The translations under genes were made by a program, and so were the position numbers. The notes under the pieces are model-generated. The model was given only the letters and a program-made list of their open reading frames with translations, was not told the origin of the DNA and ran no database searches. Positions 10,551 through 64,000 of a DNA stretch of 64,000 nt are shown here, piece by piece (the stretch's first letter is position 1; every line of letters begins with the position of its first letter). The stretch comes from Xanthomonas sacchari. GTDB lineage: Bacteria; Pseudomonadota; Gammaproteobacteria; Xanthomonadales; Xanthomonadaceae. The stretch lies in NCBI RefSeq assembly GCF_040529065.1, contig NZ_CP132343.1, forward strand, positions 2,666,001-2,730,000. The letters are read 5' to 3'.

Positions 10551-10567
10551 TACATGAAAATCATGTA
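10551..10567. promoter_or_regulatory. Palindromic operator candidate between divergent genes
   Basis: TACATGA-aaa-TCATGTA is a perfect 7-bp inverted repeat with a 3-bp spacer. It lies 50 bp from the XRE start and 54 bp from the divergent gene's start. Its size and symmetry fit a dimeric XRE regulator. A possible -10 hexamer (TAGACT, 10566-10571) for the rightward gene abuts it, so binding would block that promoter. Confidence 0.45.
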
Positions 10568-10620
10568 GACTGATCTGGAGATGATTGCTAGCCTTTGGCT
10601 AAGCCTCACCAGGAGGTCAG

Positions 10621-11409: not shown

Positions 11410-11471
11410 AGCAAGGAAGCCCGCGCCATTGCCGTTTCGGCAACCATCCCCGCAGAATATTAGCAGTGTCG

Positions 11472-11506
11472 GGCAGAGTGGACCAAGCCGCTTAGTCCAC
11501 TCTGCC
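11472..11506. terminator. Hairpin between convergent genes
   Basis: A 12-bp perfect stem (GGCAGAGTGGAC / GTCCACTCTGCC) encloses an 11-nt loop. It lies between the convergent 262-residue gene and tniQ. There is no strong T-run on either side, so it is either a bidirectional terminator or part of a transposon end. Termination is favoured by its position. Confidence 0.4.
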
Positions 11507-11570
11507 GTGAAATCGAAGCTACTAACGCTTCGCCAATTGCATCTGGATTTCATAAGCCTCATTCGATTTT

Positions 11571-15697: not shown

Positions 15698-17020
15698 CTA
15701 GCGCCTCTGCTGGGCGGCCTTTTCGCATTGTGCCTGGACAGCGGCAGCGAGGCGTTCAAGCCCGTCAATCAGCACCGTGTCCTCGATGGTCAGGGGCGGT
15801 ATCAGCTTGACGACATTCTCTTCCGGGCCACAGAGTTCGACGATCAGTCCCAGTTCGAATGCGGTCCGTGAGACGGCGTCGGCGATGTGCCGGTCCAGGA
15901 AAACCAAGCCCTGCAACATGCCGATCCCCCGCACCTCGCTAATGTGCTCCGGCGCGGACGCCTGGATGGAACGAAGAGCCTCCCTGATCAGTCTTGCCCG
16001 GTGGTCGATCGCATTGCAAAACCTGCTGTCTTCCCAGTAGCTCAGCACGGCGGTCGCGGCCACGAAGGCGAGATTGTTGCCGCGGAACGTTCCGTTGTGC
16101 TCGCCCGGCTCCCAGGAGTCCAGGCCGGGCTTCATCAATACCAGGGACATCGGCAGACCATAGCCGGAGATCGACTTTGACAAGCACACGATGTCGGGGC
16201 AGATTCCGGCGCGCTCGAAGCTGAAGAACGCCCCGGTGCGGCCGCAGCCGGCCTGGATGTCGTCTACGATGAGCATGATGTCTTGCTTCCTGGCCAGCTC
16301 GGCCAGACGCACAAGCCACGCGGAAGACGCCACGTTGATCCCGCCTTCAGCCTGCACCGTCTCGACGATGAACGCGGCGGGCAGATCAATGCCCGATCCG
16401 CCCCGCAGCAACAACGCTTCGACTACATCCAGCGTATCGAGGTCCTTGCCCAGGAAGCCATCGTAGGGCATGCGTACGATGTCGTGCAGGGAAACACCGG
16501 CCGCCGCACGCTTGGACGCCCTCGCTGATGCGGCCAGCGACGCCAGTGTCATGCCGTGGAAGGCGTTGGTGAAGGCGACGACATTGCGCCGCCCGGTCAC
16601 CTTCCGTGCCAGCTTCAATGCGGCCTCTACCGCGTTGGTGCCGGTCGGTCCGGTGAACTGCACTCGGTAGTCGTAGCCTCTTGGTGACAGGATGACGCGC
16701 TTGAACTCCCGCAAAAAATCGCGCTTGGCGAGTGTATGCAGATCCAGCGCCTGGATTACGCCATCGTTCGACAGATAGGCGATCAGCCTGTCGCGTACCA
16801 ACGGATTGTTGTGCCCGTAGTTGAGCGAGCCGGCTGCAGCCAGGAAATCGATATACGTCCGCCCTGCCTCATCCTCCAGGACCGCGTTACGCGCTGTGGC
16901 GAACATCGCGGGGAATCTCCTGCAATAGCTTCTGACGCCGGATTCGACCTCCGCGAAGATCTGAAAAGAGTCTTGGACGGCCGAAGTTTCTTCAAGCTCG
17001 ACGACTGCGCAGACAGACAT
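15698..17020 (-). CDS. Diaminobutyrate-2-oxoglutarate aminotransferase
   Basis: This 440-residue class III, PLP-dependent aminotransferase of the EctB/Dat type converts aspartate semialdehyde and glutamate to L-2,4-diaminobutyrate (Dab). The start at 17020 is preceded by AAGGAG; an in-frame upstream Met is unlikely. Diagnostic segments are QFTGPTGTNAVEAALKLAR (121-139), FHGMTL (154-159), VDDIQAGCGRTG (252-263, acidic residues that contact the PLP ring) and the PLP lysine K282 in LSKSISGYGLPM. It lies 69 bp downstream of the CmlA-like gene as the last gene of the NRPS operon. Synthetase D carries an adenylation domain with a Dab-type code, so the likely job is to supply that monomer. A role in ectoine synthesis is improbable because no ectA or ectC is adjacent. 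Confidence 0.88.
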   Translation of the reverse strand: MSVCAVVELEETSAVQDSFQIFAEVESGVRSYCRRFPAMFATARNAVLEDEAGRTYIDFLAAAGSLNYGHNNPLVRDRLIAYLSNDGVIQALDLHTLAKRDFLREFKRVILSPRGYDYRVQFTGPTGTNAVEAALKLARKVTGRRNVVAFTNAFHGMTLASLAASARASKRAAAGVSLHDIVRMPYDGFLGKDLDTLDVVEALLLRGGSGIDLPAAFIVETVQAEGGINVASSAWLVRLAELARKQDIMLIVDDIQAGCGRTGAFFSFERAGICPDIVCLSKSISGYGLPMSLVLMKPGLDSWEPGEHNGTFRGNNLAFVAATAVLSYWEDSRFCNAIDHRARLIREALRSIQASAPEHISEVRGIGMLQGLVFLDRHIADAVSRTAFELGLIVELCGPEENVVKLIPPLTIEDTVLIDGLERLAAAVQAQCEKAAQQRR

Positions 17021-17089
17021 TGAACGCTCCTTGATTCGATTGGATTGACACCGCACGGCGTCCGGTTGTGGGCACGACGCCCGTCCCGT

Positions 17090-18679
17090 TCAGAACTCCA
17101 GTTCTCTGCTGCAGAATAGACGCTCGCCCGGGATCCCCGCCTGCCTGCACTTGTCCAAAAACATGTCCGACTCCACCAACTGGATGCTGTCGGGCTCGTA
17201 CTTCAGGCCCATCATGTACTGCAGCCAAGGCTCCTGCCCCATCGCATAGATGAAGACCCGCGGCGGCTGCACCTCGCTCAGTACGTTCCAGGCGCGTTCG
17301 CAGTTGGCTCCCGACAGGCGCCGTGACTCATTGTTCTTGCGGCTGACTGGTTTGCCGAGCAACGGTTCGTACAGCCAGGCCAGCGGCGCACCGTGACATT
17401 CCATTCCCAGGAACAGCGCGTCGATCCGGCCGACGCGGCGCATCATGCGCTGGTAGAGCATGCCATCGACGCCATCTGAGTCGATCAGGAACATGAATTT
17501 GCGGCCTTTGAGCGTCAGCGCAATGGCATGTTTGCTGTAGATGCTGAGATCCGCGTGCTCGCCGGTGAACGGCAAACTGAGGATTTCTCCGTCCGGGATC
17601 TCGACACGCTCGAACGCATCCAGCACTTCGACGTCCTCGAATCCCAACGAGCGCAGCATGAGTTTCATGGATGGATCGGCGATATTGCCGCTGTTGTTCG
17701 AGGGCACGATTACCTTGCCGATCCGGTGTCGCAGCTGGATCAGTATCTCCGCGCAAAAGTGGTCCTGGTGGGAATGCGTCAGCACCACATAGTCAATGAA
17801 CTCGGGAAGGTCGTTGTAGGTAAACCGACCATCGTCTTTCGTCTCGAATGCCACCATCGGGTCGAAAAGCACCGAGACCTGGCTGCTCTGAAACAGGACG
17901 CAGGCATGGCCGAAATAGCGCATGCGTACTTCGTCCCCGGCATAGTGGGCGTTTCCGTTCGTTGCCGGTGGCATCGTAGTGAAGAACTCGGCGAAGGCTG
18001 GCGCGGCGTCGGCGCCCACCTCGAACAATGCCGCGATTTCCTGGAACGGCCTGGGCGTGGTGCGCATGCCCGCAAGCACGTCCATCCGCTTATCGGAGAA
18101 CTGCATTGCGACACGATAGGAATTCTTGCCGTCGAGGCGGGGCGTGCTCATGAAGAAGTGGCGGTCCTGCTCGCCGATCAACTGCAGCAGGATTTCCTGT
18201 TTGCCGCCCATGCCTTCGTCGTAGACCAGATCCTCGAAGAGGCGCAGGCCCGGATGGTCGTTGGTGTCGTACAGGCACTCGACGAGGCCGCGCAGCGATG
18301 GCGGCAGCTTGGAGTAGAAGCCGTTAAGCGAGAATCCGTTGGCTTCGGCCTGAAGCGTGGCGCTGAAGTTCTTCAGATCCTCGGCGAAGGTCAAAAGAGG
18401 CGCGCACTGCTCCTGTGTCTGTGCCATCAACTGCTCTACCGCAGGGACATCTTCCACTGCCAGGCTGACGAACGGGCCGCCGTACATTGCCGGATCGCTA
18501 CTCGCGGCCAGGTGCGCGGCGGGATTGGTCACGAACGATTCCATCAGCGGCAGCAGGCGGAACTTGAGGTTCATCGCCAGCTGCGCCGGGGCGATCAGGT
18601 ACGGCCATGCGTACCAGCCCGATACCAGCGGCTCGATCTTTGTCCCAGATTTCAGAAAAACGGTATCGGTTGGAAGCAT
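17090..18679 (-). CDS. CmlA-type di-iron beta-hydroxylase
   Basis: The 529-residue protein has a helical N-terminal domain (about 1-245) and a C-terminal metallo-beta-lactamase fold with THSHQDH (301-307). CmlA of the chloramphenicol pathway has the same two-part build and nearly the same length (about 532). It uses a non-heme di-iron centre to beta-hydroxylate an aromatic amino acid held on an NRPS carrier domain. The metal ligands I recall for CmlA (His305, His307, Asp309, His310, Glu377, Asp403) are all matched here at a constant offset of three: H302, H304, D306, H307, E374 (FTGEH) and D400 (FLIDSDG). This argues strongly against an ordinary hydrolase. It lies in the NRPS operon, 49 nt after the SyrP-like gene. 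The substrate module is not shown; the aromatic-type first module of synthetase B is the best candidate. Confidence 0.85.
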   Translation of the reverse strand: MLPTDTVFLKSGTKIEPLVSGWYAWPYLIAPAQLAMNLKFRLLPLMESFVTNPAAHLAASSDPAMYGGPFVSLAVEDVPAVEQLMAQTQEQCAPLLTFAEDLKNFSATLQAEANGFSLNGFYSKLPPSLRGLVECLYDTNDHPGLRLFEDLVYDEGMGGKQEILLQLIGEQDRHFFMSTPRLDGKNSYRVAMQFSDKRMDVLAGMRTTPRPFQEIAALFEVGADAAPAFAEFFTTMPPATNGNAHYAGDEVRMRYFGHACVLFQSSQVSVLFDPMVAFETKDDGRFTYNDLPEFIDYVVLTHSHQDHFCAEILIQLRHRIGKVIVPSNNSGNIADPSMKLMLRSLGFEDVEVLDAFERVEIPDGEILSLPFTGEHADLSIYSKHAIALTLKGRKFMFLIDSDGVDGMLYQRMMRRVGRIDALFLGMECHGAPLAWLYEPLLGKPVSRKNNESRRLSGANCERAWNVLSEVQPPRVFIYAMGQEPWLQYMMGLKYEPDSIQLVESDMFLDKCRQAGIPGERLFCSRELEF

Positions 18680-18728
18680 CGAATATCCCTATAGAGGTTC
18701 TACGCATGGAGACGCGGCAGCGGCCCGC

Positions 18729-19688
18729 TCAGGTGGAGGAAAGGTAGGCGAGCGTATTACGTTCGCCCTTGAACGACTCGCGGCCATGCATCATCAGGAC
18801 GTTGTCGATCATCAGCAGGTCGTTGCGCTGCCAATCGAACAGCAACTTGTTCTGGTTCAGGACCTTTCGCACCTGCGCAAGCACATCCTCTTCCATGGCC
18901 TCGCCATCGCCGTACTCGCACTCATGCGGAAGATTGCCCTTCCCCACCATTTGCTCGAACATGCCGCGAATGGCGGGATTCAACGCCGACGCATGCCATT
19001 GCTCGGCCTGGTTGAACCAGACCTCCTCGCCTGTGCGGGGATGCGTCGTGACGGCCTCGCAGCGGGTGGAGACGCGCAGCATGCCGTTGGCCGACCATGT
19101 GCAGACCGATCCCTGTTCGGCGGCGATCTTCTCCACCTGGGCACGGTCCTCGGTCTGGTAGGTCGCCTGCCAGCTCTTCCCGAACGGAATGTTCGGCTGA
19201 AAGTTGCGGATGTAGTTGATCTTCTTCTCTCGAAACTTGTCAGCGATGTCCTGCGGCAGCTGCTGCAGGATGTCGCGACTACTGGCAAGCGATGTCTGTC
19301 CGCCCGAAGCGGCCGGGGTCAGACTGTAAAAGAACAGGCGCGTCGGCCAGTCGGGCAGATAGGACATCTCGTTGTGCAGCGAGATCACCTCGGTGGCCGG
19401 ATACTCGGTAGAGGTGAAGACATCAGCAACCACGCGATTGCGCGGCGAATCGCCGCCCACATAGCCGAACGGCTTGCCTCCCAGACGTTCGGCACAGTTG
19501 TGGAAGTCCTGCGCGCCCTTCAGAGTGAAGCCTCGGAAGAGAATCCCCCCATGCTGCAACAACAGTTCCTCGATTCTGGCGCTTTCATGCGCCAGGTAGC
19601 CCTGCAACGTGTCCAGGCTGGCGTCCGCCTCTGGCGTCACGACCACCGGGTGGTGGTCCGAGGTCGAAAACAGGGAACTCACTTTCAT
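18729..19688 (-). CDS. SyrP-like Fe(II)/2-oxoglutarate dioxygenase
   Basis: This 319-residue TauD/SyrP-family oxygenase starts at 19688, preceded by GGAGA; the longer frame from 19979 is non-coding upstream. The metal triad is visible as H105 and E107 in SLHNEMSY, a hallmark of the SyrP branch, and H301 in LMMHGRESF. R310 is a candidate 2-oxoglutarate-binding Arg. SyrP in syringomycin synthesis beta-hydroxylates an aspartyl residue on its carrier domain, and relatives hydroxylate other carrier-bound residues. In this operon the Asn/Asp-type second module of synthetase B is the most obvious partner, though that is inference. It follows the type II thioesterase by 83 nt. Together with the CmlA-like enzyme it gives the pathway two mechanistically unrelated hydroxylases. 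Confidence 0.88.
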   Translation of the reverse strand: MKVSSLFSTSDHHPVVVTPEADASLDTLQGYLAHESARIEELLLQHGGILFRGFTLKGAQDFHNCAERLGGKPFGYVGGDSPRNRVVADVFTSTEYPATEVISLHNEMSYLPDWPTRLFFYSLTPAASGGQTSLASSRDILQQLPQDIADKFREKKINYIRNFQPNIPFGKSWQATYQTEDRAQVEKIAAEQGSVCTWSANGMLRVSTRCEAVTTHPRTGEEVWFNQAEQWHASALNPAIRGMFEQMVGKGNLPHECEYGDGEAMEEDVLAQVRKVLNQNKLLFDWQRNDLLMIDNVLMMHGRESFKGERNTLAYLSST

Positions 19689-19771
19689 AAACCGGTCTCC
19701 ATGCGGTGTGATGCGATGTACGGGCCGCGCCGATGCCGATGCGGCGAGTGAAACATGCGGTGTTGGTCTGG

Positions 19772-20599
19772 CTAGAGCATGCGTGGGCTGCTGGTACTGG
19801 CGGCATGCGTGCTGCGCCCTGGGTCTGCGGTGGTTGGGCTGCGCGCAGGCAACTGCTTGATCATGTCCTCCAACTCGCTGTTGAGTTGATCCACCACGGC
19901 ACTGCGCTGTGTGTTGATAAAGAAGTGGCCGTCGTCGAACCACGTGGTGCGGCACGCGGCGGATGTCTCCTTCGCCCATCCTTCGACCTGGCCGTAGCCC
20001 TCGTTGTCGTCTTGCCGGCCGGCGTAGACACTGATCGGAATTTGCAGCAGAGGGCCTGGGCGATACGCGTAGTCCTCGGCCAGTGTGAAGTCGGCGCGGA
20101 TTGCAGGAAGCATGAGTGCCATCAGTTCGCGACTCTCCAGCACCTCGGCAGGCGTTCCGTTGTAGTGACGCAATTCCTTGATGAAGTCGGCATCCGACAG
20201 CTGCCGCAACTGCCTGGAGGGGCTACGGAACCGCGGCGCCTGACATCCCGAGGCAAACAAGTGTCGTGGGCCCGTAATGCCGTGCAGACGCAGATAGCGC
20301 GCCAGTTCGAATGCGATCAGCGCCCCGACGCTATGGCCGAAGAAGGCGAACGGCAAGCAGCCCTGCTGTGTGATCGCCGGCGCCATCGCCCTAAGCAAGG
20401 TCTGCATCGAAGCGATCGGAGCCTCCGCGATGCGTGCGCCCCGTCCAGGGAGCTGCAGGGCGCAGATCTCGACAGATGGATGCAACGCGGGACGCCACGC
20501 AGCGAAATTGAAGGCGCTTCCACCTGCGTAGGCGAAGCAGAACAGCCGCATCCGTGGCGGCGCGGCGGTCATGTGGACGACCCAGGGGGTGTGGTGCAT
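19772..20599 (-). CDS. Type II thioesterase
   Basis: This 275-residue alpha/beta hydrolase begins at the Met at 20599, behind a GAGGGAG site and 4 nt after the stop of synthetase A. The upstream extension of the frame overlaps synthetase A and is a shadow. Family features are RLFCFAYAGGSA near the start, the nucleophile elbow GHSVG (S90), ELARYLR after it, and the catalytic His in DDGHFFI near the C-terminus. Stand-alone thioesterases of this class remove wrong or stalled acyl groups from carrier domains, keeping the assembly line running. Final product release should instead fall to the thioesterase fused to synthetase A. The C-terminal tail (last about 25 residues, Ser/Thr/Pro-rich) is unusual and may be disordered. 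Confidence 0.9.
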   Translation of the reverse strand: MHHTPWVVHMTAAPPRMRLFCFAYAGGSAFNFAAWRPALHPSVEICALQLPGRGARIAEAPIASMQTLLRAMAPAITQQGCLPFAFFGHSVGALIAFELARYLRLHGITGPRHLFASGCQAPRFRSPSRQLRQLSDADFIKELRHYNGTPAEVLESRELMALMLPAIRADFTLAEDYAYRPGPLLQIPISVYAGRQDDNEGYGQVEGWAKETSAACRTTWFDDGHFFINTQRSAVVDQLNSELEDMIKQLPARSPTTADPGRSTHAASTSSPRML

Positions 20600-20603
20600 G
20601 ACG

Positions 20604-23600
20604 TCAAACTCCCTCAGGTGCGGCCGCCCGTGGGGAGGCTGCCATGTGGAGGCACGTTCGGTCCGGCGGTGCACTGCCATGCCCCAGAGCGTTCTCGATC
20701 GCCTCGGCGATGCACTGCACGTGGGGGTCTCTCATCAGACCGTAGTGATCCGTCTCGAGGTGATGGCTCCTGCCCTCACTGGTCCACGGCTCGGAAGCGC
20801 GCATTGGCGGATCCATCGGAGCGGCGGGGTCCTGGCGCATCGCCCAGAATGTCTGCACAGGGGCCGGCACGGGGCTGGGACGGTAGCCTGCGAGCAATCG
20901 CAGGTGTCCATGGGTGACAGGCACTTGCGCCTTGAAATGGGAGAAGGCAGCGGCATCGAGGTCCGGCGTCAGCCATTGACTCAGCAATGGCCCCGCGTCG
21001 GAAAACGTCATCTGCAACAGCGCGGCGACTTCGCTGGAACCCGGTATCGCGTTCTCCCGGCCGCCCTGCTTCCAGGAGTACCCGCTTCCACGCAGTTCCA
21101 CCAGTGCGGCCTTGAGCAGCAGGGCATCGTCATCCAGGCATGCATCGTCGACGTAGGAGCGAGCGTCGACGAGGCCGAGGTACTCGATCTCATTGCCCTC
21201 CCCGATCAACTGCGCTGCCACCGCGGCCGCGATGACGCCGCCCGTCGACCACCCCAGCAGACGGTAAGGCCCCGACGGTTGCGCGATGCGTATGGCCTGT
21301 GCGTATGCGCGGGCCATGTCCGTGATGGTCTCAAATTTGTGCGGCGCCCCGTTCGCCTCAGGTGCCTGGATGCCATGAACTGGAATCCGTGGCGCCAGGT
21401 GTCGCGCCAGCGCCCGATAGAAGAATACCTGTCCGCCGACTGGATGGAGGCAGAATAGTGGCCTGTCCTCGCCTGCGCTTTGCAGCGGCACCATCACTGT
21501 CTGCGTTTGGCGGCCGGTCTCGACCATGGCGGCGAGGTCGCAAAGGCGCGAAGCCGAGAATATCGCCGCGATCGGCAGGTCCGCATCGAAGCGCATCCGT
21601 AGCGCATGCACTAGCTTGATCGCAAGCAGGGAATGTCCTCCCAACTCAAAGAAGTCGTCCTGCCGCCCGACCCGCTCCAGGTTCAACAGTTCCTGCCAGA
21701 TCGCGGCAATTCCCTGCTCCGTCTCGCCGTCTGGCGCCTCGTAGGCGCGGCTGGCCACGGCCGCCTGGTCCGGGGCCGGCAGCGCCGTGCGATCCAGCTT
21801 GCCGTTGGGCGTCAGCGGCAAGCTCTCCAACATCACGAACGCGCTGGGCACCATGTACTCGGGCAAGGCCTGCGATAGCGCATCGCGCAGCGACGCCACC
21901 GCCAACGCATTGCCGGCGTCGGGCACCACATAGGCCACCAGCCGCTTGTCGCCCGGCACATCCTCGCGTGCGAGCACCACTGCCTCGCGTACGCTCGCGC
22001 ACGCCGCCAGCCGCGCCTCGATCTCCCCCAGCTCGATGCGGAACCCGCGCACCTTCACCTGGAAATCGTTACGCCCCAGATACTCGATGTTGCCGTCCGG
22101 CCGCCAGCGCCCCAGATCGCCGGTGCGGTACATGCGGGCATCGCGATCGGACGCAAACGGATCGGCCAGGAACCGCTCGGCCGTCAGCTCCGGGCGGTTC
22201 AAGTAGCCGCGGGCCACACCGGCACCGCCGATGTACAGCTCGCCGATCACCCCGATCGGTACCGGCTGACCCTGCGCATCCAGCACGTACACCTGCGTAT
22301 TGGCGATCGGCTTGCCGATATGGCCAACGAACCCGGTCTCCCGCGTCATCGTCGTCCAGGTCGAGTAGGTCGTTGTCTCCGAAGGACCGTACAGGTTCGC
22401 CACCACCTGCGCCTGGCTTGTCGCAAACACCCGCTCCACCAGCGCTCGCTTCAGCGGCTCGCCGGCCAGGTTCACCGTCGTCACCGAGGCCGGCAGGTCC
22501 GCGCCGTCCAGCACCGCGGCCATCGCCGAAGGCACCGTGTTGACCAGCGTCGTCCCATCCAGGGCCTGCCCCGCCGACACCAGGTCCGCAACCAGCCGCA
22601 CGCTGCGGCCGCTGCTCAGCGGCACGAACAACTCGAACACGGCCAAGTCGAAATTGATCGACGTCGACAACAGCGTCGTGGCCAACTGCTCGGCACTGAA
22701 GCTGGCCTGCGCCCAGGCCACCAGGTTGACGGCGTTGGCATGCGCGAGCATCACCCCCTTGGGCCGTCCGGTGGAGCCGGAGGTGTAGATCACGTAGGCC
22801 AGATGCCGCGCACTCAGACCAGCCACGACCGGATCGTGTGCCGGCTGGCGGGCCAGTGCGGCATCGTCGTCCACGGCCACGATTGCCACGGCCCTCTCGT
22901 CGCCGCCGAGAGCACGCACCGTGTCGACCAACCGCGCCTGCGTCAGCAGCGCCACCGGCTCGGCATCGGCCAGCATGTAGGCCAGCCGCTCGGCCGGATA
23001 CGCCGGATCCAGCGGCACGTAGGCACCGCCGGCCTTGAGGATCGCCAGGATCCCCACCACCATCTCCACGCTGCGCGGCAGGCAGATCGCCACGCGCGTA
23101 TCCGGTTGCACGCCCAGTGCGATCAGGCGGTGCGCCAGCTGGTTGGCACGGGCGTTCAATGCACCGTAGCTCAGCTGCTGGTCCCCGCACTCCAGGGCCA
23201 GCGCCTGCGGCTGCCGCGATGCCTGCGCCTGGAACAAGACATGGATCGGCGTGTTCTGCGGAACATCCATCCGCGTCGCGTTGAACGTGTGCAATACCTG
23301 CTCGCGTTCCTCCGGCGATAACAACGGCAGGCGCGAGACGGCTTGCGTGTCGTCACTCACCATCGCCGCCAGCAGCGTCTGCCACTGGCCCAGCAACCGC
23401 TCCATGCGCGCCGGCTCGAACAGGTCGGCCGCATACACCAGCCCACCGACGAGCCCATCCGGCGTCTCGCTCAGCGCCAGCGACAGGTCGAACTGCGCGC
23501 TCGGCGTGCCCGTCTCCAATGCAGCCAGACGCAGGCCGGGCAGCTGCAACGCCCCCTCGCCGGGGGTGTTGTTCAAGCTCAGCATCGCCTGGAACACCGG

Positions 23601-27974: not shown

Positions 27975-28026
27975 CTAGCGACCTTGTCTGCAGGTGTCCT
28001 TGCGAATGCGTAGCATCGGAACGCGC

Positions 28027-37855
<9,829 letters not shown>

Positions 37856-37866
<11 letters not shown>

Positions 37867-56700: not shown

Positions 56701-59700
56701 AGGGTCATGAACAAGGTCGCGCCATGACGCTGCGACAGGGCATGCAATGCGCTGAAGAGATCCACGTCCACACGAACCGGAATGCGGTCGCCCGCGTAGC
56801 GCTGCGTGGCTGGGCGCGGCCGGTCAGTCGGCAGTTCCAGCAACGCGGGTGCGCCCTGCAACTGCCCGCGCCAAAAGGCGATCTGTTCCTGCAGAAGATC
56901 GCCCTGCAGCCAAATTCGCTGCCATGCGGCATAGTCCGCGTACTGGATCTGCAATGCCGGCAATGGATCGGACGCACCGATATGGAAGGCGGCATACAGC
57001 GCGCTGAACTCGCGTACCAGCACCCCGATCGACCAGCCATCGGAGACGATGTGGTGCTGGGTCACCAGCAGCACGTGCTCCTGCGCGGACAAAGCCAACA
57101 GGCGGCCGCGGATCAGCGGGCCTTTCGCCAGGTCGAACGGCGCGCCAGCCTCGGCGAGGCGCAGTTCGGAGACCGCTGCGTCTTGGGCGGCAGCGTCCAA
57201 CCCACGCAGATCGTGCGTAATCAATGCGAAGCCACTGTCCGGTGGCGCGATCACCTGCTGTGGCTCGCCCTCCACGCTGACGAAGGTCGTACGCAGGCTT
57301 TCGTGACGCGCTACGATCCGGTCGAGGCTCGACTGCAGCGCGGCGAGGTCCAACTGCCCGCTCAGCTGTAGCGCCGTCGGCATGTGATAAGCCGCTCCCG
57401 CCGCCGCGTCGAGCTGGTCCAGGAACCAAAGCCGTTGCTGTGCCCATGACAATGGCAGCGGCCGGGTGCGATCGGTCAACGGAATGATCGCGTGGGACGC
57501 CCGGCTCGCTGCAGCGATGACAGTGGCGAGGGCAGCTAACATCGGTGCAACGAAGACGCTGTGCACGGGCAGTTCCACGCCCAGCGTCGCGCGCAGACGC
57601 GTCACCAGCCGGACGGCCAGCAAGGAATGTCCGCCCAGTTCGAAGAAGTGATCGTGCCGGCCCACTCGCTCCAGACCAAGCAGTTCCTGCCAGATCGTCG
57701 CGAGTGACTGTTCGATCTCGCCCACCGGCGGCATGTAGTCGCTGCTCGCCAATGCCGCCCGGTCCGGCACCGGCAATGCCTGACGATCCAGCTTGCCATT
57801 CGGCGTCAGCGGCAAGCTCTCCAACATCATGAACGCGCTGGGCACCATGTACTCGGGCAAGGCCTGCGATAGCGCATCGCGCAGCGACGCCACCGCCAAC
57901 GCATTGCCGGCGTCGGGCACCACATAGGCCACCAGCCGCTTGTCGCCCGGCACATCCTCGCGTGCGAGCACCACTGCCTCGCGTACGCCCGCGCACGCCG
58001 CCAGCCGCGCCTCGATCTCCCCCAGCTCGATGCGGAACCCGCGCACCTTCACCTGGAAATCGTTACGCCCCAGATACTCGATGTTGCCGTCCGGCCGCCA
58101 GCGCCCCAGATCGCCGGTGCGATACATGCGGGCATCGGGATCGGACGCAAACGGATCGGCCAGGAACCGCTCGGCCGTCAGCTCCGGGCGGTTCAAGTAG
58201 CCGCGGGCCACACCGGCACCGCCGATGTACAGCTCGCCGATCACCCCGATTGGCACCGGCTGACCCTGCGCATCCAGCACGTACACCTGCGTGTTGGCGA
58301 TCGGCCGACCGATGGGCATCGGATCGCATACCAGGCCAACCTGGGTGCGATGGAGCGTCGCCCATACGGTCGCTTCGGTGGGGCCATACTCGTTGTACAG
58401 CGCAAGCTCCGGAACAAAGCGCTCCGTCATCCTCTGCAGGGCGGGAGGGCAGACCTCTCCCGCCACGATGATTTCCTTGAGGCTTCGCTCGTGGCTCTCT
58501 TCCATCTGCTCAAGGATCAGGCGCGCCAGCGACGGTACGCAAAGCAGCGTGGTGATGCAATGCCGATTGATGTCACGCGCAATTGCCTGCGGGTCATGCC
58601 CAGCATCGCGCTCAAGGACCACCAGCGTCCCGCCCTCGAGCAGGGTGCCGAAGATGCCGGCAACCGAGCTGTCGAAGGCAATGGACGACAGCAGTAGAAA
58701 GCGCTCGTACCCAGCGTACGCGTTCGTTCTGGCCAGGGTAGACGCCACCAATTGCCGATGCTCGATCATCACTCCCTTGGGCCGTCCGGTGGAGCCGGAG
58801 GTGTAGATCACGTAGGCCAGATGCCGCGCACTCAGACCAGCCACGACCGGATCGTGTACCGGCTGTAGGGCCAATGTGGCATCGTCCACGGCCACCCGGG
58901 TCACGTCCGCCGTCGGATCCAGGTGCTGGACCTTCTCGGCCAGCGCTGACTGCGTCAACAGCGCAACCGGCTCGGCATCGGCCAGCATGTAGGCCAGCCG
59001 CTCGGCCGGATACGCCGGATCCAGCGGCACGTAGGCACCGCCGGCCTTGAGGATCGCCAGGATCCCCACCACCATCTCCACGCTGCGCGGCAGGCAGATC
59101 GCCACGCGCGTATCCGGTTGCACGCCCAGTGCGATCAGGCGGTGCGCCAGCTGGTTGGCACGGGCGTTCAATGCACCGTAGCTCAGCTGCTGGTCCCCGC
59201 ACTCCAGGGCCAGCGCCTGCGGCTGCCGCGATGCCTGCGCCTGGAACAAGGCATGGATCGGCGTGTTCTGCGGAACATCCATCCGCGTCGCGTTGAACGT
59301 GTGCAATACCTGCTCGCGTTCCTCCGGCGATAACAACGGCAGGCGCGAGACGGCTTGCGTGTCGTCACTCACCATCGCCGCCAGCAGCGTCTGCCACTGG
59401 CCCAGCAACCGCTCCATGCGCGCCGGCTCGAACAGGTCGGCCGCATACACCAGCCCACCGACGAGCCCATCCGGCGTCTCGCTCAGCGCCAGCGACAGGT
59501 CGAACTGCGCGCTCGGCGTGCCCGTCTCCAATGCAGCCAGACGCAGGCCGGGCAGCTGCAACGCCCCCTCGCCGGGGGTGTTGTTCAAGCTCAGCATCGC
59601 CTGGAACACCGGGCTGTGACTCAGGCTGCGCACCGGCTGCACCGCTTCGACCACCTGCTCGAACGGCAGATCCTGGTGCGCATAGACGCCCAGCAGCCTG

Positions 59701-62700
59701 GCACGCACCTGCGCCAACAGCGCCGCCACACTCGGGTCGCCGTCCAGGTCCACGCGCAGGGCCAGGGTGTTGGCGAAGAAGCCGATCAACGGCTCGATCT
59801 CGGCGCGTTGCCGGTTCGCCACCGGGCTGCCGATCACCACCTGGTGCTGGCCGCTCAGCCGCCCCAGCAGCGCCGACCAGCTGGCCAGCAGCGTCATGAA
59901 CAGCGTGGTGCCGTGGCGCTGCGACAGCTGCTGCAGTTGGACACTGAGCGACTGCGGTACCCGCACCGCCACGCGGGCGCCCCGGTAGCGTTGCACCGCC
60001 GGCCGCGGCTGGTCGGTCGGCAGCTCCAGCAGTGCCGGTGCATCACGCAACTGGTCCTTCCAGAACGCCCGTTGTTCGTCCAGCACAGTCCCCTGCAACC
60101 AGCGCCGCTGCCAGGCCGCATAGTCCGCATACTGCACCGGCAGTGCCGGCAAGGGATCGGCCGCGCCGGTCAGGAAGGCGGCATACAGCGCGCTGACCTC
60201 ACCCACCAGTACCCCGATCGACCAGCCATCGGAGACGATATGGTGCTGGGTCACCAGCAACACGTGCTCCTGCGCAGACAACACCAACAGGCGGCCGCGG
60301 ATCAGCGGGCCCTGCGCCAGGTCGAACGGCGCGCCGGCCTCGGCCAGGCGCAGTTCTGCGACCGCCGCCTCCTGCTCGGCCCCCTGCAGATGGCGCAGGT
60401 CGTGCTCGATCAACTGGAAGCCGCTATCTGCCGGTGCGATCACCTGTCGCGGTTCGCCCTCCACGCTGGCGAAGGTGGTGCGCAGGCTCTCGTGCCGCGC
60501 CACCACGCGGTCCAGGCTGCACTGCAGCGCGGTGCGGTCCAGCATACCGCTCAGCCGCAGCGCGGCCGGGATGTGATAGGCCGCGCCCGCAGCATGATCG
60601 AGTTGATCCAGGAACCACAGCCGCTGCTGCGCCCACGACAGCGGCAACGTCCCCTCCCCCCGCTCCACCGGCTCGATCGCCTCCTGCGTCGTGGCGCCGG
60701 CAGCGGCCACGCGTGCGGCCAAGGCGGCCAGCACCGGATGGGCGAAGACCTCGCGCAATGCCAGTTCCACCCCCAGCGTCGCACGCACCCGGGTCACCAG
60801 GCGCACCGCCAGCAACGAGTGCCCGCCCAGCTCGAAGAAGTGGTCCTGCCGCCCCACCCGCTCCAGACCAAGCAGTTCCTGCCAGATCGTCGCGAGTGAC
60901 TGTTCGATCTCGCCCACCGGCGGCATGTAGTCGCTGCTCGCCAATGCCGCCCGGTCCGGCACCGGCAATGCCTGACGATCCAGCTTGCCATTCGGCGTCA
61001 GCGGCAAGCTCTCCAACATCACGAACGCGCTGGGCACCATGTACTCGGGCAAGGCCTGCGATAGCGCATCGCGCAGCGACGCCACCGCCAACGCATTGCC
61101 GGCGTCGGGCACCACATAGGCCACCAGCCGCTTGTCGCCCGGCACATCCTCGCGTGCGAGCACCACTGCCTCGCGTACGCTCGCGCACGCCGCCAGCCGC
61201 GCCTCGATCTCCCCCAGCTCGATGCGGAACCCGCGCACCTTCACCTGGAAATCGTTACGCCCCAGATACTCGATGTTGCCGTCCGGCCGCCAGCGCCCCA
61301 GATCGCCGGTGCGGTACATGCGGGCATCGCGATCGGACGCAAACGGATCGGCCAGGAACCGCTCGGCCGTCAGCTCCGGGCGGTTCAAGTAGCCGCGGGC
61401 CACACCGGCACCGCCGATGTACAGCTCGCCGATCACCCCGATCGGTACCGGCTGACCCTGCGCATCCAGCACGTACACCTGCGTATTGGCGATCGGCTTG
61501 CCGATATGGCCAACGAACCCGGTCTCCCGCGTCATCGTCGTCCAGGTCGAGTAGGTCGTTGTCTCCGAAGGACCGTACAGGTTCGCCACCACCTGCGCCT
61601 GGCTTGTCGCAAACACCCGCTCCACCAGCGCTCGCTTCAGCGGCTCGCCGGCCAGGTTCACCGTCGTCACCGAGGCCGGCAGGTCCGCGCCGTCCAGCAC
61701 CGCGGCCATCGCCGAAGGCACCGTGTTGACCAGCGTCGTCCCATCCAGGGCCTGCCCCGCCGACACCAGGTCCGCAACCAGCCGCACGCTGCGGCCGCTG
61801 CTCAGCGGCACGAACAACTCGAACACGGCCAAGTCGAAATTGATCGACGTCGACAACAGCGTCGTGGCCAACTGCTCGGCACTGAAGCTGGCCTGCGCCC
61901 AGGCCACCAGGTTGACGGCGTTGGCATGCGCGAGCATCACCCCCTTGGGCCGTCCGGTGGAGCCGGAGGTGTAGATCACGTAGGCCAGATGCCGCGCACT
62001 CAGACCAGCCACGACCGGATCGTGTGCCGGCTGGCGGGCCAGTGCGGCATCGTCGTCCACGGCCACGATTGCCACGGCCCTCTCGTCGCCGCCGAGAGCA
62101 CGCACCGTGTCGACCAACCGCGCCTGCGTCAGCAGCGCCACCGGCTCGGCATCGGCCAGCATGTAGGCCAGCCGCTCGGCCGGATACGCCGGATCCAGCG
62201 GCACGTAGGCACCGCCGGCCTTGAGGATCGCCAGGATCCCCACCACCATCTCCACGCTGCGCGGCAGGCAGATCGCCACGCGCGTATCCGGTTGCACGCC
62301 CAGTGCGATCAGGCGGTGCGCCAGCTGGTTGGCACGGGCGTTCAATGCACCGTAGCTCAGCTGCTGGTCCCCGCACTCCAGGGCCAGCGCCTGCGGCTGC
62401 CGCGATGCCTGCGCCTGGAACAAGGCATGGATCGGCGTGTTCTGCGGAACATCCATCCGCGTCGCGTTGAACGTGTGCAATACCTGCTCGCGTTCCTCCG
62501 GCGATAACAACGGCAGGCGCGAGACGGCTTGCGTGTCGTCACTCACCATCGCCGCCAGCAGCGTCTGCCACTGGCCCAGCAACCGCTCCATGCGCGCCGG
62601 CTCGAACAGGTCGGCCGCATACACCAGCCCACCGACGAGCCCATCCGGCGTCTCGCTCAGCGCCAGCGACAGGTCGAACTGCGCGCTCGGCGTGCCCGTC

Positions 62701-64000
62701 TCCAATGCAGCCAGACGCAGGCCGGGCAGCTGCAACGCCCCCTCGCCGGGGGTGTTGTTCAAGCTCAGCATCGCCTGGAACACCGGGCTGTGACTCAGGC
62801 TGCGCACCGGCTGCACCGCTTCGACCACCTGCTCGAACGGCAGATCCTGGTGCGCATAGGCGCCCAGCAGCCTGGCACGCACCTGCGCCAACAGCGCCGC
62901 CACACTCGGGTCGCCGTCCAGGTCCACGCGCAGGGCCAGGGTGTTGGCGAAGAAGCCGATCAACGGCTCGATCTCGGCGCGTTGCCGGTTCGCCACCGGG
63001 CTGCCGATCACCACCTGGTGCTGGCCGCTCAGCCGCCCCAGCAGCGCCGACCAACTGGCCAGCAGCGTCATGAACAGCGTGGCGCCGTGGCGCTGCGACA
63101 GCTGCTGCAGTTGGGTACTGAGCGCCTGCGGTACCCGCACCGCCACGCGGGCGCCCCGGTAGCGTTGCACCGCCGGCCGCGGGTGGTCGGTCGGCAGCTC
63201 CAGCAGTGCCGGTGCATCACGCAACTGGTCCTTCCAGAACCCCCGTTGTTCGTCCAGCACAGTCCCCTGCAACCAGCGCCGCTGCCAGGCCGCATAGTCC
63301 GCATACTGCACCGGCAGTGCCGGCAAGGGATCGGCCGCGCCGGTCAGGAAGGCGGCATACAGCGCGCTGACCTCACCCACCAGTACCCCGATCGACCAGC
63401 CATCGGAGACGATATGGTGCTGGGTCACCAGCAGAACGTGTTCCTTTTCGGCGAGAACCAGCAAGCGGCCACGCACCAGCGGGCCCTGCGCCAGGTCGAA
63501 CGGCGCGCCGGCCTCGGCCAGGCGCAGTTCTGCGACCGCCGCCTCCTGCTCGGCCCCCTGCAGATGGCGCAGGTCGTGCTCGATCAACTGGAAGCCGCTA
63601 TCTGCCGGTGCGATCACCTGTCGCGGTTCGCCCTCCACGCTGGCGAAGGTGGTGCGCAGGCTCTCGTGCCGCGCCACCACGCGGTCCAGGCTGCACTGCA
63701 GCGCGGTGCGGTCCAGCATACCGCTCAGCCGCAGCGCGGCCGGGATGTGATAGGCCGCGCCCGCAGCATGATCGAGTTGATCCAGGAACCACAGCCGCTG
63801 CTGCGCCCACGACAGCGGCAACGTCCCCTCCCCCCGCTCCACCGGCTCGATCGCCTCCTGCGTCGTGGCGCCGGCAGCGGCCACGCGTGCGGCCAAGGCG
63901 GCCAGCATTGGGTGGGCGAAGACCTCACGCAATGCCAGTTCCACCCCCAGCGTCGCACGCACCCGGGTCACCAGGCGCACCGCCAGCAACGAGTGCCCGC
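47715..64000 (-). CDS. NRPS D, first in order, 5' end outside window
   Basis: This is the upstream synthetase: 5428 codons are visible and the frame is still open at the right edge inside a carrier domain (GHSLLAVRL), so at least one more module precedes. The complete modules, with approximate A-domain coordinates and by-eye codes, are: D1 60960-62430, DLFNNALTYK (Ala). D2 57780-59250, DSALIAEVWK (no match I can name). D3 54590-56080, DVQFVAHVVK (Pro type). D4 51370-52870, DVEHNTTVTK (close to a Dab code I recall from syringomycin-type synthetases). D5 48110-49590, DMKDLGMVDK (Glu/Gln). C domains before D1-D4 are of the L-L type with HHIVSDG. The one before D5 is dual E/C (GILFHHLL, GGDIY, HHIVCDH), so Dab should become D-Dab. 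All visible A domains end with the NGKLDR lysine motif. The C-terminal tail (ELERMQRELDSLSEEELREML) is a likely docking helix. Confidence 0.95.
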   Translation of the reverse strand, partial: GHSLLAVRLVTRVRATLGVELALREVFAHPMLAALAARVAAAGATTQEAIEPVERGEGTLPLSWAQQRLWFLDQLDHAAGAAYHIPAALRLSGMLDRTALQCSLDRVVARHESLRTTFASVEGEPRQVIAPADSGFQLIEHDLRHLQGAEQEAAVAELRLAEAGAPFDLAQGPLVRGRLLVLAEKEHVLLVTQHHIVSDGWSIGVLVGEVSALYAAFLTGAADPLPALPVQYADYAAWQRRWLQGTVLDEQRGFWKDQLRDAPALLELPTDHPRPAVQRYRGARVAVRVPQALSTQLQQLSQRHGATLFMTLLASWSALLGRLSGQHQVVIGSPVANRQRAEIEPLIGFFANTLALRVDLDGDPSVAALLAQVRARLLGAYAHQDLPFEQVVEAVQPVRSLSHSPVFQAMLSLNNTPGEGALQLPGLRLAALETGTPSAQFDLSLALSETPDGLVGGLVYAADLFEPARMERLLGQWQTLLAAMVSDDTQAVSRLPLLSPEEREQVLHTFNATRMDVPQNTPIHALFQAQASRQPQALALECGDQQLSYGALNARANQLAHRLIALGVQPDTRVAICLPRSVEMVVGILAILKAGGAYVPLDPAYPAERLAYMLADAEPVALLTQARLVDTVRALGGDERAVAIVAVDDDAALARQPAHDPVVAGLSARHLAYVIYTSGSTGRPKGVMLAHANAVNLVAWAQASFSAEQLATTLLSTSINFDLAVFELFVPLSSGRSVRLVADLVSAGQALDGTTLVNTVPSAMAAVLDGADLPASVTTVNLAGEPLKRALVERVFATSQAQVVANLYGPSETTTYSTWTTMTRETGFVGHIGKPIANTQVYVLDAQGQPVPIGVIGELYIGGAGVARGYLNRPELTAERFLADPFASDRDARMYRTGDLGRWRPDGNIEYLGRNDFQVKVRGFRIELGEIEARLAACASVREAVVLAREDVPGDKRLVAYVVPDAGNALAVASLRDALSQALPEYMVPSAFVMLESLPLTPNGKLDRQALPVPDRAALASSDYMPPVGEIEQSLATIWQELLGLERVGRQDHFFELGGHSLLAVRLVTRVRATLGVELALREVFAHPVLAALAARVAAAGATTQEAIEPVERGEGTLPLSWAQQRLWFLDQLDHAAGAAYHIPAALRLSGMLDRTALQCSLDRVVARHESLRTTFASVEGEPRQVIAPADSGFQLIEHDLRHLQGAEQEAAVAELRLAEAGAPFDLAQGPLIRGRLLVLSAQEHVLLVTQHHIVSDGWSIGVLVGEVSALYAAFLTGAADPLPALPVQYADYAAWQRRWLQGTVLDEQRAFWKDQLRDAPALLELPTDQPRPAVQRYRGARVAVRVPQSLSVQLQQLSQRHGTTLFMTLLASWSALLGRLSGQHQVVIGSPVANRQRAEIEPLIGFFANTLALRVDLDGDPSVAALLAQVRARLLGVYAHQDLPFEQVVEAVQPVRSLSHSPVFQAMLSLNNTPGEGALQLPGLRLAALETGTPSAQFDLSLALSETPDGLVGGLVYAADLFEPARMERLLGQWQTLLAAMVSDDTQAVSRLPLLSPEEREQVLHTFNATRMDVPQNTPIHALFQAQASRQPQALALECGDQQLSYGALNARANQLAHRLIALGVQPDTRVAICLPRSVEMVVGILAILKAGGAYVPLDPAYPAERLAYMLADAEPVALLTQSALAEKVQHLDPTADVTRVAVDDATLALQPVHDPVVAGLSARHLAYVIYTSGSTGRPKGVMIEHRQLVASTLARTNAYAGYERFLLLSSIAFDSSVAGIFGTLLEGGTLVVLERDAGHDPQAIARDINRHCITTLLCVPSLARLILEQMEESHERSLKEIIVAGEVCPPALQRMTERFVPELALYNEYGPTEATVWATLHRTQVGLVCDPMPIGRPIANTQVYVLDAQGQPVPIGVIGELYIGGAGVARGYLNRPELTAERFLADPFASDPDARMYRTGDLGRWRPDGNIEYLGRNDFQVKVRGFRIELGEIEARLAACAGVREAVVLAREDVPGDKRLVAYVVPDAGNALAVASLRDALSQALPEYMVPSAFMMLESLPLTPNGKLDRQALPVPDRAALASSDYMPPVGEIEQSLATIWQELLGLERVGRHDHFFELGGHSLLAVRLVTRLRATLGVELPVHSVFVAPMLAALATVIAAASRASHAIIPLTDRTRPLPLSWAQQRLWFLDQLDAAAGAAYHMPTALQLSGQLDLAALQSSLDRIVARHESLRTTFVSVEGEPQQVIAPPDSGFALITHDLRGLDAAAQDAAVSELRLAEAGAPFDLAKGPLIRGRLLALSAQEHVLLVTQHHIVSDGWSIGVLVREFSALYAAFHIGASDPLPALQIQYADYAAWQRIWLQGDLLQEQIAFWRGQLQGAPALLELPTDRPRPATQRYAGDRIPVRVDVDLFSALHALSQRHGATLFMTLLASWSVLLARFSGQDQVVIGSPVANRARAEIEPLVGFFVNTLALRVDLREDPSVAALLAQVRTTTLAAYAHQDLPFEQVVEALQPARSLSYSPIFQAMLGLNNTPADGEPALPGLSLAVLDNPQNTAQFDLALSLSEAAGGLAGELTYATDLFDRQTMERLLGCWRAVLNAMVADDRQTVCRLPILPEVERETVLVRFNATQAEYPYRQPVHAEFEAMAAQQPDAIAVEHAGQRLTYGALNRCANRLAHRLIALGVRPDDRVAICMERCPELVVAVLGALKAGGAYVPLDPAYPAERLAYLLQDSAPSVVVTQPSIALPLAASVPRLHLDAQGLEELTGQPESNPLPRAIGSDHLAYVIYTSGSTGKPKGVAMPHRALRNLLAWQQGAYPGACLPERVLQFSALGFDVAFQEIFHTLGTGGCLLLVDDAIRQDPFELLRFLQAQQVQRIFLPFVALQGMAAAAQQSGTTTPALRGVVTAGEQLFANPAIRAFFDANPGCRLHNHYGPTETHVVTALTLAEEPARWPALPPIGKPIANVRIYLLDAHGAPVPIGVTGELHIGGDALARGYLHRPELTAERFLADPFSDMPHARMYRTGDLGRWRADGTIEYLGRNDFQVKIRGFRVELGEIEARLAACTGVREAVVLAGEDATGDKRLVAYVVPEASIAPSASALREVLSQALPEYMVPSAFVTLESLPLSPNGKLDRRALPTPDQAAVVSHAYVAPQGELEQAIAALWEELLGLERVGRQDHFFELGGHSLLAVRLVTRLRAALGIELPLREVFAQPVLARLAARVAGAGAATQDAIVPVDRSGTLPLSWAQQRLWFLDQLDPAASAAYHIPVALHLSGSLDRVALQASLDRLVARHESLRTTFTSVEGTPQQFIAAADAGFLLISHDLRERGAAAQSAAVAEFSTNEAHAPFDLARGPLIRGRLLQLSDEEHVLLVTQHHIVSDGWSIGVLVGELSTLYAAFRQGEPDPLPTLSVQYADYAAWQRRWLQGPAQQDQLAFWKEHLRDAPALLELPTDRPRPAVQRYAGDEVEVRLSAARVAELNTFSRRHGVTLFMTLLTAWTALLSRLSGQDDIVVGTPVANRPRAEIEPLVGFFVNTLALRVGVQADPTVVELLERVKAATLGAYAHQDLPFEQVVEALQPERSLSHSPLFQVSLDLQNTPQHAFHLPGLTLVAQETRSPTSQFDLSLALLEEGDAIRGVLKYATDLFDRERIVRLASHFDLLLQALVSDPQLRVSELPLLTDAERHQLLVAFNDTVRPYPRDLCIHHLFEAQVAAQPHAIAVRDHGQQLSYAELNRQANRLAHRLIELGVKPDTRVAICAERNAWMVIGVLGILKAGGAYVPLDPAYPAERLAYILEDSRPLVLLTHAGLDDIAQRASSGHAQIPLLTLDRDRTLVQQPVHDPLVADLTPRHLAYVIYTSGTTGLPKGVMVEHRGLVNYIFDAVRLFGIVPSDTVLQQNSLNFDVSVEEMFPALCGGATLLPTSRIFGTAGEDAGPALTVVHITAAHWHTLVTEWQRDPDKAHRDLHHLRLLNVTGDALSTQKLQAWDALRPASLKLINTYGPTETTVTCTAAYVQYDALNETMASATIGRPVANTQIYILDAALQPVPLGVAGEIYIGGDGVTRGYLNRDALTAERYLRDPFSTMPGARMYKSGDRARYRQGGHIEFLGRNDFQVKVRGFRVELGEIEARLAAAAGVREAVVVAQKGASDEKRLIAYVVPQDGVAPTVGALREALSKDLPDYMVPSAFVTLEALPLTPNGKLDRKALPAPDLGAVANRVYEAPVGEVEQAIATIWQEVLGLEQVGRQDNFFELGGHSLLVIGMIERLRRSGLSADVRSVFMAPTLSALSAHLLQASPAIVRGAVPHNLITPSTTAIVPELLPLVNLTQAEIDRIVGGVPGGTSNVQDIYPLAPLQEGILFHHLLESGSGGDIYLLCTMVAFDGRARLDAFLDALQQVIDRHDILRSAVHWEELTKPVQVVQRRAVLPVHELMLSADAPAQAQLLALTDPRRVRLDLRQAPILAAYVARDPATGEWLLALLNHHIVCDHIAQDQILSEIQAVLQGQQATLPAPKPYRDFIARTLAVSEAEHEAYFRAQLGDVDEPTAPFGVLDVQAESAGEVHEARLRLDDALALRLREVARQQGVTPSVLFHLAWAQVLARCSGRDDVVFGTVLSGRLQETEGTEHVVGMFINTLPIRLQLAELGVAEAVRETHRRLSALLLHEQMPLAVTQRCSGIQPPLPLFTALLNYRHNYDHDSAEAQAWSGVRVVSDEIRTNYPLTMSVDDFGRGFALVVQCSARIDPQRVVHYLGTAVTALVAALETQPTFAVRALQVLPSAERSQVLHGFNATQAAYPQQALIHGLFAAQAARQPDAPAVECDGQMLSYGELNRRANRLAHRLIGLGVRPDERVALCTERSVDLVVGVLGILKAGGAYVPLDPAYPAERLAYMLADSAPMAVVTQATLYAQLPMLASAAAPVLVLEDLAHDAATATHDPVVPGLHARHLAYVIYTSGSTGQPKGVMVEHRSAVNFWQVMTRTTHRQCPANARVALNAAFSFDMSLKGLLQLLSGHCLVLIPQALRANAAALVGFLEQQRIDAVDSTPSQLEAWLAAGLLAPGARRPRSVLLGGEAIGPHLWERLRASTQVGFHNMYGPTECTVDATIEDVAASTGGPAIGKPIANARIYLLDAQGQPVPIGVAGEIHIGGVGVARGYLHRPELTAQRFLDDPFAQEAGARMYRTGDLGRWRADGTLEYLGRNDFQVKVRGFRIELGEIEARLVACAGVREAVVLAREDVPGDQRLVAYLVAEVGVELSAAALRETLAQALPEYMVPNAFVTLEALPLTPNGKLDRKALPVPGQAAVASRAYEAPVGEVEQAIATIWQELLGLEQIGRQDNFFELGGHSLLVMQLVIRIREQFQVDVVLRALFERPTLMELAAAVDELQKTVFLGDELERMQRELDSLSEEELREMLDRESIND
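47932..49648 (-). repeat. NRPS module repeat, copy 3 (module D5)
   Basis: Aligns with 38076-39792 at an offset of 9856 bp with scattered single-base differences. It is shorter than the other two because the preceding domain is a dual E/C domain with a different end. Confidence 0.75.
57671..58306 (-). repeat. 0.64-kb repeat of A-domain C-terminus and carrier (module D2)
   Basis: Aligns with 60863-61498 of module D1 at an offset of 3192 bp without indels. With the preceding repeat it brackets a non-matching core of 660 bp in D2 against 642 bp in D1. The C-terminal A-domain part is also shared with both modules of synthetase A (about 21811-22310 and 24985-25484). Confidence 0.75.
58967..60826 (-). 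repeat. 1.86-kb repeat of C domain and A-domain N-terminus (module D2)
   Basis: Aligns with 62141-64000 of module D1 at an offset of 3174 bp with only scattered differences. It stops abruptly where the substrate-binding core of the adenylation domain begins. Confidence 0.75.
60997..64000 (-). repeat. 3.0-kb NRPS repeat, copy in synthetase D
   Basis: Partner of 21811-24814 in module D1. The match continues to the window edge, so the true repeat is longer than 3.0 kb. Both copies have the same orientation and reading phase. Confidence 0.8.

Follow-up and report, generated by a model that had tools for sequence, protein, structure and literature searches.

The window (the whole stretch analysed, 64,000 nucleotides; G000:C1:2666001-2730000) lies on a one-contig chromosome of 4,957,212 bases from X. 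sacchari. G-labels denote the genomes compared, G000 being the genome of the window itself, and the genus set comprises 20 genomes with G000 included. The window holds four nonribosomal peptide synthetase (NRPS) genes with tailoring genes downstream of them, and NRPS gene 1 runs past the window end to a start at G000:C1:2733037. The features are as follows.

15698..17056, minus strand: 2,4-diaminobutyrate (Dab) aminotransferase, Dab supply (TIGR00709, 417 bits, cut-off 401.6)
17090..18679, minus strand: CmlA-type non-heme diiron beta-hydroxylase (CmlA_N domain)
18729..19979, minus strand: TauD/SyrP-like Fe/2-oxoglutarate oxygenase (PF02668, 154 bits)
19772..20680, minus strand: stand-alone type II thioesterase (PF00975, 150.6 bits)
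20604..27974, minus strand: NRPS gene 4, modules 13 (Val/Leu-type, DAWLLGCTF) and 14 (Ala), terminal thioesterase (TE)
28027..37875, minus strand: NRPS gene 3, modules 10 (Phe-like), 11 (dual E/C, Asn) and 12 (Glu)
33118..34440, minus strand: dual E/C domain of module 11, predicted to make residue 10 D; HHLLGGAGD motif
37856..47722, minus strand: NRPS gene 2, modules 7 (Glu), 8 (dual E/C, Val) and 9 (Glu)
42977..44302, minus strand: dual E/C domain of module 8, predicted to make Glu-7 D
47715-67037, minus strand: NRPS gene 1, 6440 aa, past the window end
47715..64000, minus strand: in-window part of NRPS gene 1, modules 2-6 plus the end of module 1 with its carrier domain
49632..50945, minus strand: dual E/C domain of module 6, predicted to make Dab-5 D
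58194..60656, minus strand: condensation and adenylation domains of module 3, code DSALIAEVW
64560-65588, minus strand, outside the window: adenylation domain of module 1 (NRPS gene 1)
65649-67007, minus strand, outside the window: starter condensation domain of module 1 (NRPS gene 1)

A domain profile search placed 14 condensation (C) and 14 adenylation (A) domains, alternating C-A, across the four NRPS genes. The A3 and carrier motifs were present in all 14 modules and the A8 motif YRTGD in 13, module 5 carrying YKSGD, and the terminal TE motif was found in NRPS gene 4. A sequence-only reading of the window had described four collinear synthetase genes in one direction with 13 modules, three dual E/C domains, a terminal TE, a type II TE and three tailoring enzymes, for a peptide of at least 13-14 residues. 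This inventory held throughout: all four genes are on the minus strand, the 13 modules are modules 2-14, the dual domains are in modules 6, 8 and 11, both thioesterases and the three tailoring genes have motif or profile matches, and 14 C-A-T modules were counted, the C and A domains of the remaining one (module 1, Ala) lying at 64560-67007. That reading had also named a frameshift or inactivated module as what would speak against it; translation of the four genes showed them open, with no internal stops. Fifteen condensation matches were found chromosome-wide, and the only one outside the cluster was weak and below the family cut-off, so that by this test the cluster is the chromosome's only NRPS. 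There was no match in the genome to MbtH, a helper needed by some A domains, no Rfam match in the 64-kb window, and no tRNA was found. The four genes are a real, complete and uncharacterised assembly line.

The dual E/C domain of module 6 was 79% identical to that of module 8, 59% to that of module 11 and 22-25% to the remaining C domains of the cluster; the HHLLGGAGD motif of module 11 was also present in modules 6 and 8, with longer spacing. The C domain of module 1 shared 18-36% identity with the other C domains of the cluster, and the starter-C motif FDHxxxDGW was present in all 8 first modules read.

The sequence-only reading stopped at base 64000, with the most informative genes just beyond, and had proposed reading the full locus past that base. 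Doing so added the Ala module, a carrier protein, a fatty acyl-AMP ligase (FAAL), an acylase and an exporter. The "unseen start" of that reading is real and corresponds to Ala module 1, preceded by the carrier protein and the FAAL. The stretch beyond the window is called L010 (window coordinate = L010 + 63000).

L010 4034-4318: PP-binding carrier, 94 aa, upstream of NRPS gene 1 (profile match)
L010 4436-6238: FAAL, 600 aa, upstream of NRPS gene 1 (FAAL profiles)
L010 6461-8989: penicillin amidase (acylase), 842 aa, divergent from FAAL (PF01804, 735 bits)
L010 9031-10737: ABC exporter, divergent from FAAL (TIGR01194)
L010 10911-13813: two FtsX/MacB-type (ADOP/MacB-type) permeases, beyond the exporter
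Beyond the two permeases: VWA/CoxE protein

The FAAL and carrier adjoin the first module; none of the best FAAL matches reached the curated cut-off of its model. The exporter passed the cut-off of TIGR01194, the model for cyclic peptide export (367.9 bits, cut-off 286.2). The acylase did not reach the cut-off of the NCBIfam PvdQ equivalog (80 bits against 950), and "PvdQ-like" as used here therefore names a kind of enzyme and not membership of the PvdQ family. From residue 287 on it aligned with penicillin acylases of solved structure, over their mature beta chains, and its GSNAW Ntn-serine motif is intact. This motif was present, with no stops in the matched stretch, in all 11 acylase relatives checked. 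In-frame TGA codons were found in the relatives of G037, G130, G151 and G248, which indicates that the acylase gene is not always intact. In G003, G017 and G117, relatives of the permeases lie next to the cluster; in G247 they are on the contig that carries the tailoring genes. In the FAAL/acylase intergenic region (L010 6239-6460, window 69239-69460), a stretch around TTGAC...GGAAAAGTAAAT looked conserved by eye in G000, G003 and G017, and is a possible promoter.

At the other end of the cluster, transposon genes (TniB-like ATPase, rve/Mu-C integrase) at window 12427-15305 end approximately 400 bases from the Dab aminotransferase gene, and an RHS-repeat protein lies at 4439-9058. GC content was 0.49-0.60 (0.65 in one 2-kb bin) in window 1-16000 and 0.65-0.71 in the NRPS region. 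None of the other 19 genomes of the genus gave a match to a flanking 273-aa protein at 1472-2293, and window 9000-16000 had no plasmid match. A relative (36%) of the RHS protein was seen at 11358-13355 of L076 (G247:C184), from another genus, approximately 3 kb from the exporter of an acylase-exporter pair.

The codes at nine positions of each A domain were extracted by alignment. They were DLFNNALTY for modules 1, 2 and 14, DSALIAEVW for module 3, DVQFVAHVV for module 4, DVEHNTTVT for module 5, DMKDLGMVD for modules 6, 7 and 9, DAWWLGGTF for module 8, DAFTVAAVW for module 10, DATKVGEVG for module 11, DAKDMGVVD for module 12 and DAWLLGCTF for module 13, whose domain grouped with Val-type domains in the tree. 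The Ala, Pro, Dab, Glu, Phe and Asn assignments follow Stachelhaus codes. For the other two residues, published His codes include DSALIAEVWK, the residue of which can bear a beta-hydroxyl, and DAWWLGGTFK is implied to be a Val sequence (PMC12283262). DMKDLGMVD, carried by three modules, was not found in the open-licence literature searched. The predicted backbone is [acyl]-Ala-Ala-His-Pro-D-Dab-Glu-D-Glu-Val-Glu-D-Phe-Asn-Glu-(Val/Leu)-Ala, in which residues 5, 7 and 10 are given as D because modules 6, 8 and 11 each carry a dual E/C domain. Its predicted mass is approximately 1572.7 Da when linear with two hydroxyls, or 1754.9 Da with a C12 acyl chain. The aligned codes agreed with the residue order read by eye at every position it named. 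The position it left as X (position 3) is likewise there and carries the published His code, whereas its three Glx residues were too few: four were found, at positions 6, 7, 9 and 12.

Three tailoring genes could supply or modify these residues. The Dab aminotransferase was also above the EctB equivalog cut-off (608 against 552.2 bits), and the EctB reaction is identical. This gene and Dab codes occurred together in G000, G003, G017 and G117, whereas the G295 stretch showed neither. The diiron hydroxylase has the CmlA_N domain and a metallo-beta-lactamase-like metal site (HSHQDH in the translation) of a CmlA-type enzyme; it scored 322 bits to CmlA itself, below the 608 bits to PDB 8a90, a "non-heme diiron monooxygenase" with which it shares 269 of 519 aligned residues (52%). 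We take 8a90 to be FrsH, likewise a CmlA-type diiron hydroxylase. FrsH, of the FR900359 pathway, is described as hydroxylating carrier-bound Leu (PMC7794379), in contrast to the present cluster, which has no certain Leu-specific module. Among the 20 genus genomes (own included), 7 matched the diiron hydroxylase at E <= 0.001 and 3 at 88% identity or more; among 395 family genomes, 25 matched at E <= 1e-80, 5 of them at 70% or more.

The TauD/SyrP-like gene probably starts near 19688, judging by eye from its translation, and its matches in G117 and G295 span 319 of 416 residues. Its profile match is to the TauD family only. A close relative of it and an Asn code were found together in all 5 genomes in which both were readable. 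Since the close relative (69%) stays in G295 with the Asn code, Asn is the likeliest target, and Asn-11 is most likely the residue that this enzyme would hydroxylate. For the diiron enzyme, G295 has only a 40-41% relative and no close one. The two codes not read there are those for His and Dab, a contrast drawn from one genome in which the codes DAKNAGIDI and DSVDVGTVY are without assignment; in the tree, DSVDVGTVY branched as the sister of the Dab clade (support 0.949). The aromatic residue 10 was also considered as the diiron target and was weakened as a candidate by G017, where the enzyme is 88% identical and a Dab code, with no aromatic code, is read. His, Dab, Val, Glu and Asn remain as candidate targets.

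Clusters of the same kind were read in other genomes. That of G003 has 16 modules, the 14 of G000 plus Ala-Gln. G017 has 18, with codes in the order Ala-Gln-Ala-His-Pro-D-Dab-Glu-D-Glu-Val-Glu-D-Dab-Asn-Glu-Ser-Thr-Ser-D-Thr-(Val/Leu). G117 has 15, two A-domain pieces being overlapping parts of one domain in two frames, in the order Ala-Val-His-D-Thr-D-Dab-Glu-D-Glu-(Ile/Val)-Glu-D-Tyr-Asn-Glu-Tyr-Ala-Gln (the Dab code from a partial domain). G295, with 14 A domains, is a more distant line. The core D-Dab-Glu-D-Glu-Val-Glu-D-X-Asn-Glu, with dual domains at matching places, was common to G000, G003, G017 and G117. Across this peptide family the core is thus constant while the ends differ, the module number being 14, 15, 16 or 18. 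The G117 homologue of NRPS gene 1 is split between reading frames at two places, by decay or sequencing error.

The three DMKDLGMVD domains were 98.3-100% identical to one another within a genome (four genomes) and 74-91% identical between genomes at matching positions. In the tree, those of each genome grouped in a clade of their own in all 5 genomes (support 0.82-1.0), which indicates that they are being homogenised. In G000, A2 and A14 did not differ over 1035 bases, nor A7 and A9 over 1056 bases, and the cluster contains repeats that are 95-99% identical and reach 3.9 kb in length. Such repeats could hide an assembly error in module number; an assembly artefact is unlikely given that the homogenisation pattern is repeated in five genomes. 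As judged from the identities and the tree, the pattern is one of concerted evolution by recombination, which is known in kind for NRPS genes, and the five genomes make it a clear natural case.

The acylase was then followed across 297 family genomes, 26 of which matched at E <= 1e-60, 20 of these at 45% identity or more. Thirteen of the 20 stretches were examined, a non-random choice made mainly for high identity and long contigs (G037, G155, G130, G151, G248, G277 and G172 were left out). In all 13, the exporter was adjacent to the acylase and NRPS sequence was present in the stretch; in G014 the pair stood beside an NRPS gene of at least 4 modules. FAAL and carrier were found in 8 (G000, G003, G017, G117, G295, G170, G215 and G247), each with the acylase in the cluster and divergent from FAAL, and neither a FAAL relative nor the carrier was found in the stretches of G014, G008, G258, G140 and G173. 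A scan of named genomes for FAAL relatives gave 9 loci, including Lysobacter sp. ISL-50, L. antibioticus 13-6 and Caenimonas sp. SL110, and 7 of the 9 were compared gene by gene. Both Lysobacter loci carry the acylase and exporter. The other five lack them within the stretch covered, which for two of the five extends only approximately 3.4 and 4.2 kb in the direction concerned. The recurring acylase-exporter pair suggests that tag-and-trim maturation or protection is widespread among Xanthomonadaceae peptides.

Taken together, we consider the cluster to be a complete and probably working lipo-initiated NRPS pathway, with acylation, assembly, export and deacylation outside the cytoplasm, at a probability of roughly 0.6. 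Points against it are the reading of substrates from 9-residue codes, one of which (DMKDLGMVD) had no hit in the literature searched, the lack of an MbtH match, the long repeats, the acylase relatives with in-frame TGA codons and the five FAAL loci outside Lysobacter that gave neither acylase nor exporter within the stretch covered. The low score of the acylase against the PvdQ model (80 bits against 950) also means that its substrate may differ or that its role may be detoxification only. We infer each chemical step, and the order of export before deacylation, from gene and domain content, codes, conservation and co-occurrence. The FAAL would activate a fatty acid and load it onto the small carrier protein, and the starter C domain would couple it to Ala-1. 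The 14 modules would then extend the chain to Ala-Ala-His-Pro-D-Dab-Glu-D-Glu-Val-Glu-D-Phe-Asn-Glu-(Val/Leu)-Ala, with Dab from the cluster's own aminotransferase and the D configurations introduced by the three dual E/C domains. On the tethered chain, the diiron enzyme would beta-hydroxylate one residue and the TauD/SyrP-like enzyme one as well, most likely Asn-11. The terminal TE would free the chain, linear or as a ring, and the cyclic-peptide ABC exporter would carry it out of the cytoplasm, where the acylase, probably membrane-anchored, would strip the acyl chain, as PvdQ does for pyoverdine. There is precedent for such a step in GdnD, which removes the acyl group from lipopeptides (PMC10587159). 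As a default guess, the free peptide would inhibit the growth of competitors.

The main rival, which we regard as less likely, takes the acylated lipopeptide as the active form and the acylase as self-protection that inactivates the peptide near the producer. Acylated glidonins inhibit the host and non-acylated forms do not, and detoxification has been proposed for GdnD, with a comparison to Tem25 of telomycin (PMC10587159). The occurrence of the acylase-exporter pair with very different NRPS genes, including the five stretches in which no FAAL was found, resembles a general resistance module. However, the placement of the acylase in the cluster and divergent from FAAL in 8 of 8 stretches with both fits maturation too; the sequence data agree with deacylation as either a maturing or a disarming step. 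It is unlikely that the cluster is decayed or silent and makes no product. The transposon and lower-GC RHS region abut its downstream end and the first NRPS gene of the G117 relative is split between frames, yet the four NRPS genes of G000 are open, the motifs sought are present with A8 varying in module 5 only, and G003 and G017 retain the same architecture.

A pyoverdine-like siderophore pathway appears most improbable. In its favour, acylase, cyclic-peptide exporter, Dab aminotransferase and SyrP-like hydroxylase all occur in siderophore clusters, as do His codes of the present kind. The residue of the His code found here can take a beta-hydroxyl (PMC12283262). However, a Pfam scan found no TonB receptor among the flanking ORFs of the G000, G003 and G017 clusters, nor was one near the G000 cluster among the matches listed, and no hydroxamate or catechol genes were among the neighbours identified. 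The divergent promoter, the one region searched, has no Fur-like box (best match 9/19, background mean 9.65); a Zur-like box was also sought there, and inspection by eye showed no clear candidate. We rejected the siderophore reading because these flanks gave no receptor and this promoter no Fur box. A very doubtful extension of the pathway favoured here is that removal of the acyl group, acting as a temporary transit tag, takes place outside the cytoplasm and leaves a free Ala-1 amino group that makes Ala-Ala-His a high-affinity Cu/Ni site of the X-X-His (ATCUN) type, to which beta-hydroxy-His and the anionic Glu core would add backing. If so, the peptides would be secreted and metal-dependent, harmless inside the producer and metal-loaded only outside. 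The position of the His code, third in G000, G003 and G117 and fourth in G017, counts against such a site.

The locus had been called uncharacterised, and this stands insofar as no product with this residue order was found in the open-licence literature. It is probably not wholly unseen, however, since fragments matching it were published by Royer et al. in 2013. In X. sacchari NCPPB4393, these authors described daT, staM and syrP in one locus and A domains for Dab, Val, Glu, Phe, Asn and Pro, together with a signature of undefined specificity, DAWLLGCTFK, which equals module 13 here in the nine positions read (PMC3849588). In the section that describes them, the fragments are contigs without module order or product and without mention of His or Ala domains; "acylase", "penicillin" and "fatty acyl" are absent from the main text (PMC3849588). 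Going by that description rather than by DNA, they are probably the same cluster. The locus would thus complete a cluster seemingly glimpsed as contigs in 2013, and the predicted mass gives a direct search target. Another novel NRPS cluster has been reported for the ryegrass strain GW (PMC7479056).

The META-B loci of X. albilineans and X. oryzae carry daT, staM or syrP in one or the other locus and, as here, dual C/E domains and a predicted lipopeptide (PMC3849588). In contrast to that group, marked by Dpg genes and MbtH, the present genome gave no MbtH match and the cluster's neighbours scanned no DpgA-type match, and its diiron hydroxylase is only 36-39% identical to those of G001, G012 and G014 of the same genus. 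Telomycin is an N-acylated NRPS peptide with an acylase, Tem25. It and the glidonins combine such a peptide with a PvdQ-like deacylase (Tem25 and GdnD), as here, although the peptides differ; GdnD is encoded far from the glidonin cluster (PMC10587159), whereas the acylase and exporter here are inside the cluster. Pyoverdine maturation uses an exporter (PvdE), an acylase (PvdQ) and an aminotransferase (PvdH), and the same three kinds of enzyme are present here. The present cluster differs from it in its peptide, in having FAAL and carrier as separate genes, and in that no siderophore signature was found. The machinery is of a known type, but the family of peptides it would make is uncharacterised, with apparently only fragments on record so far.
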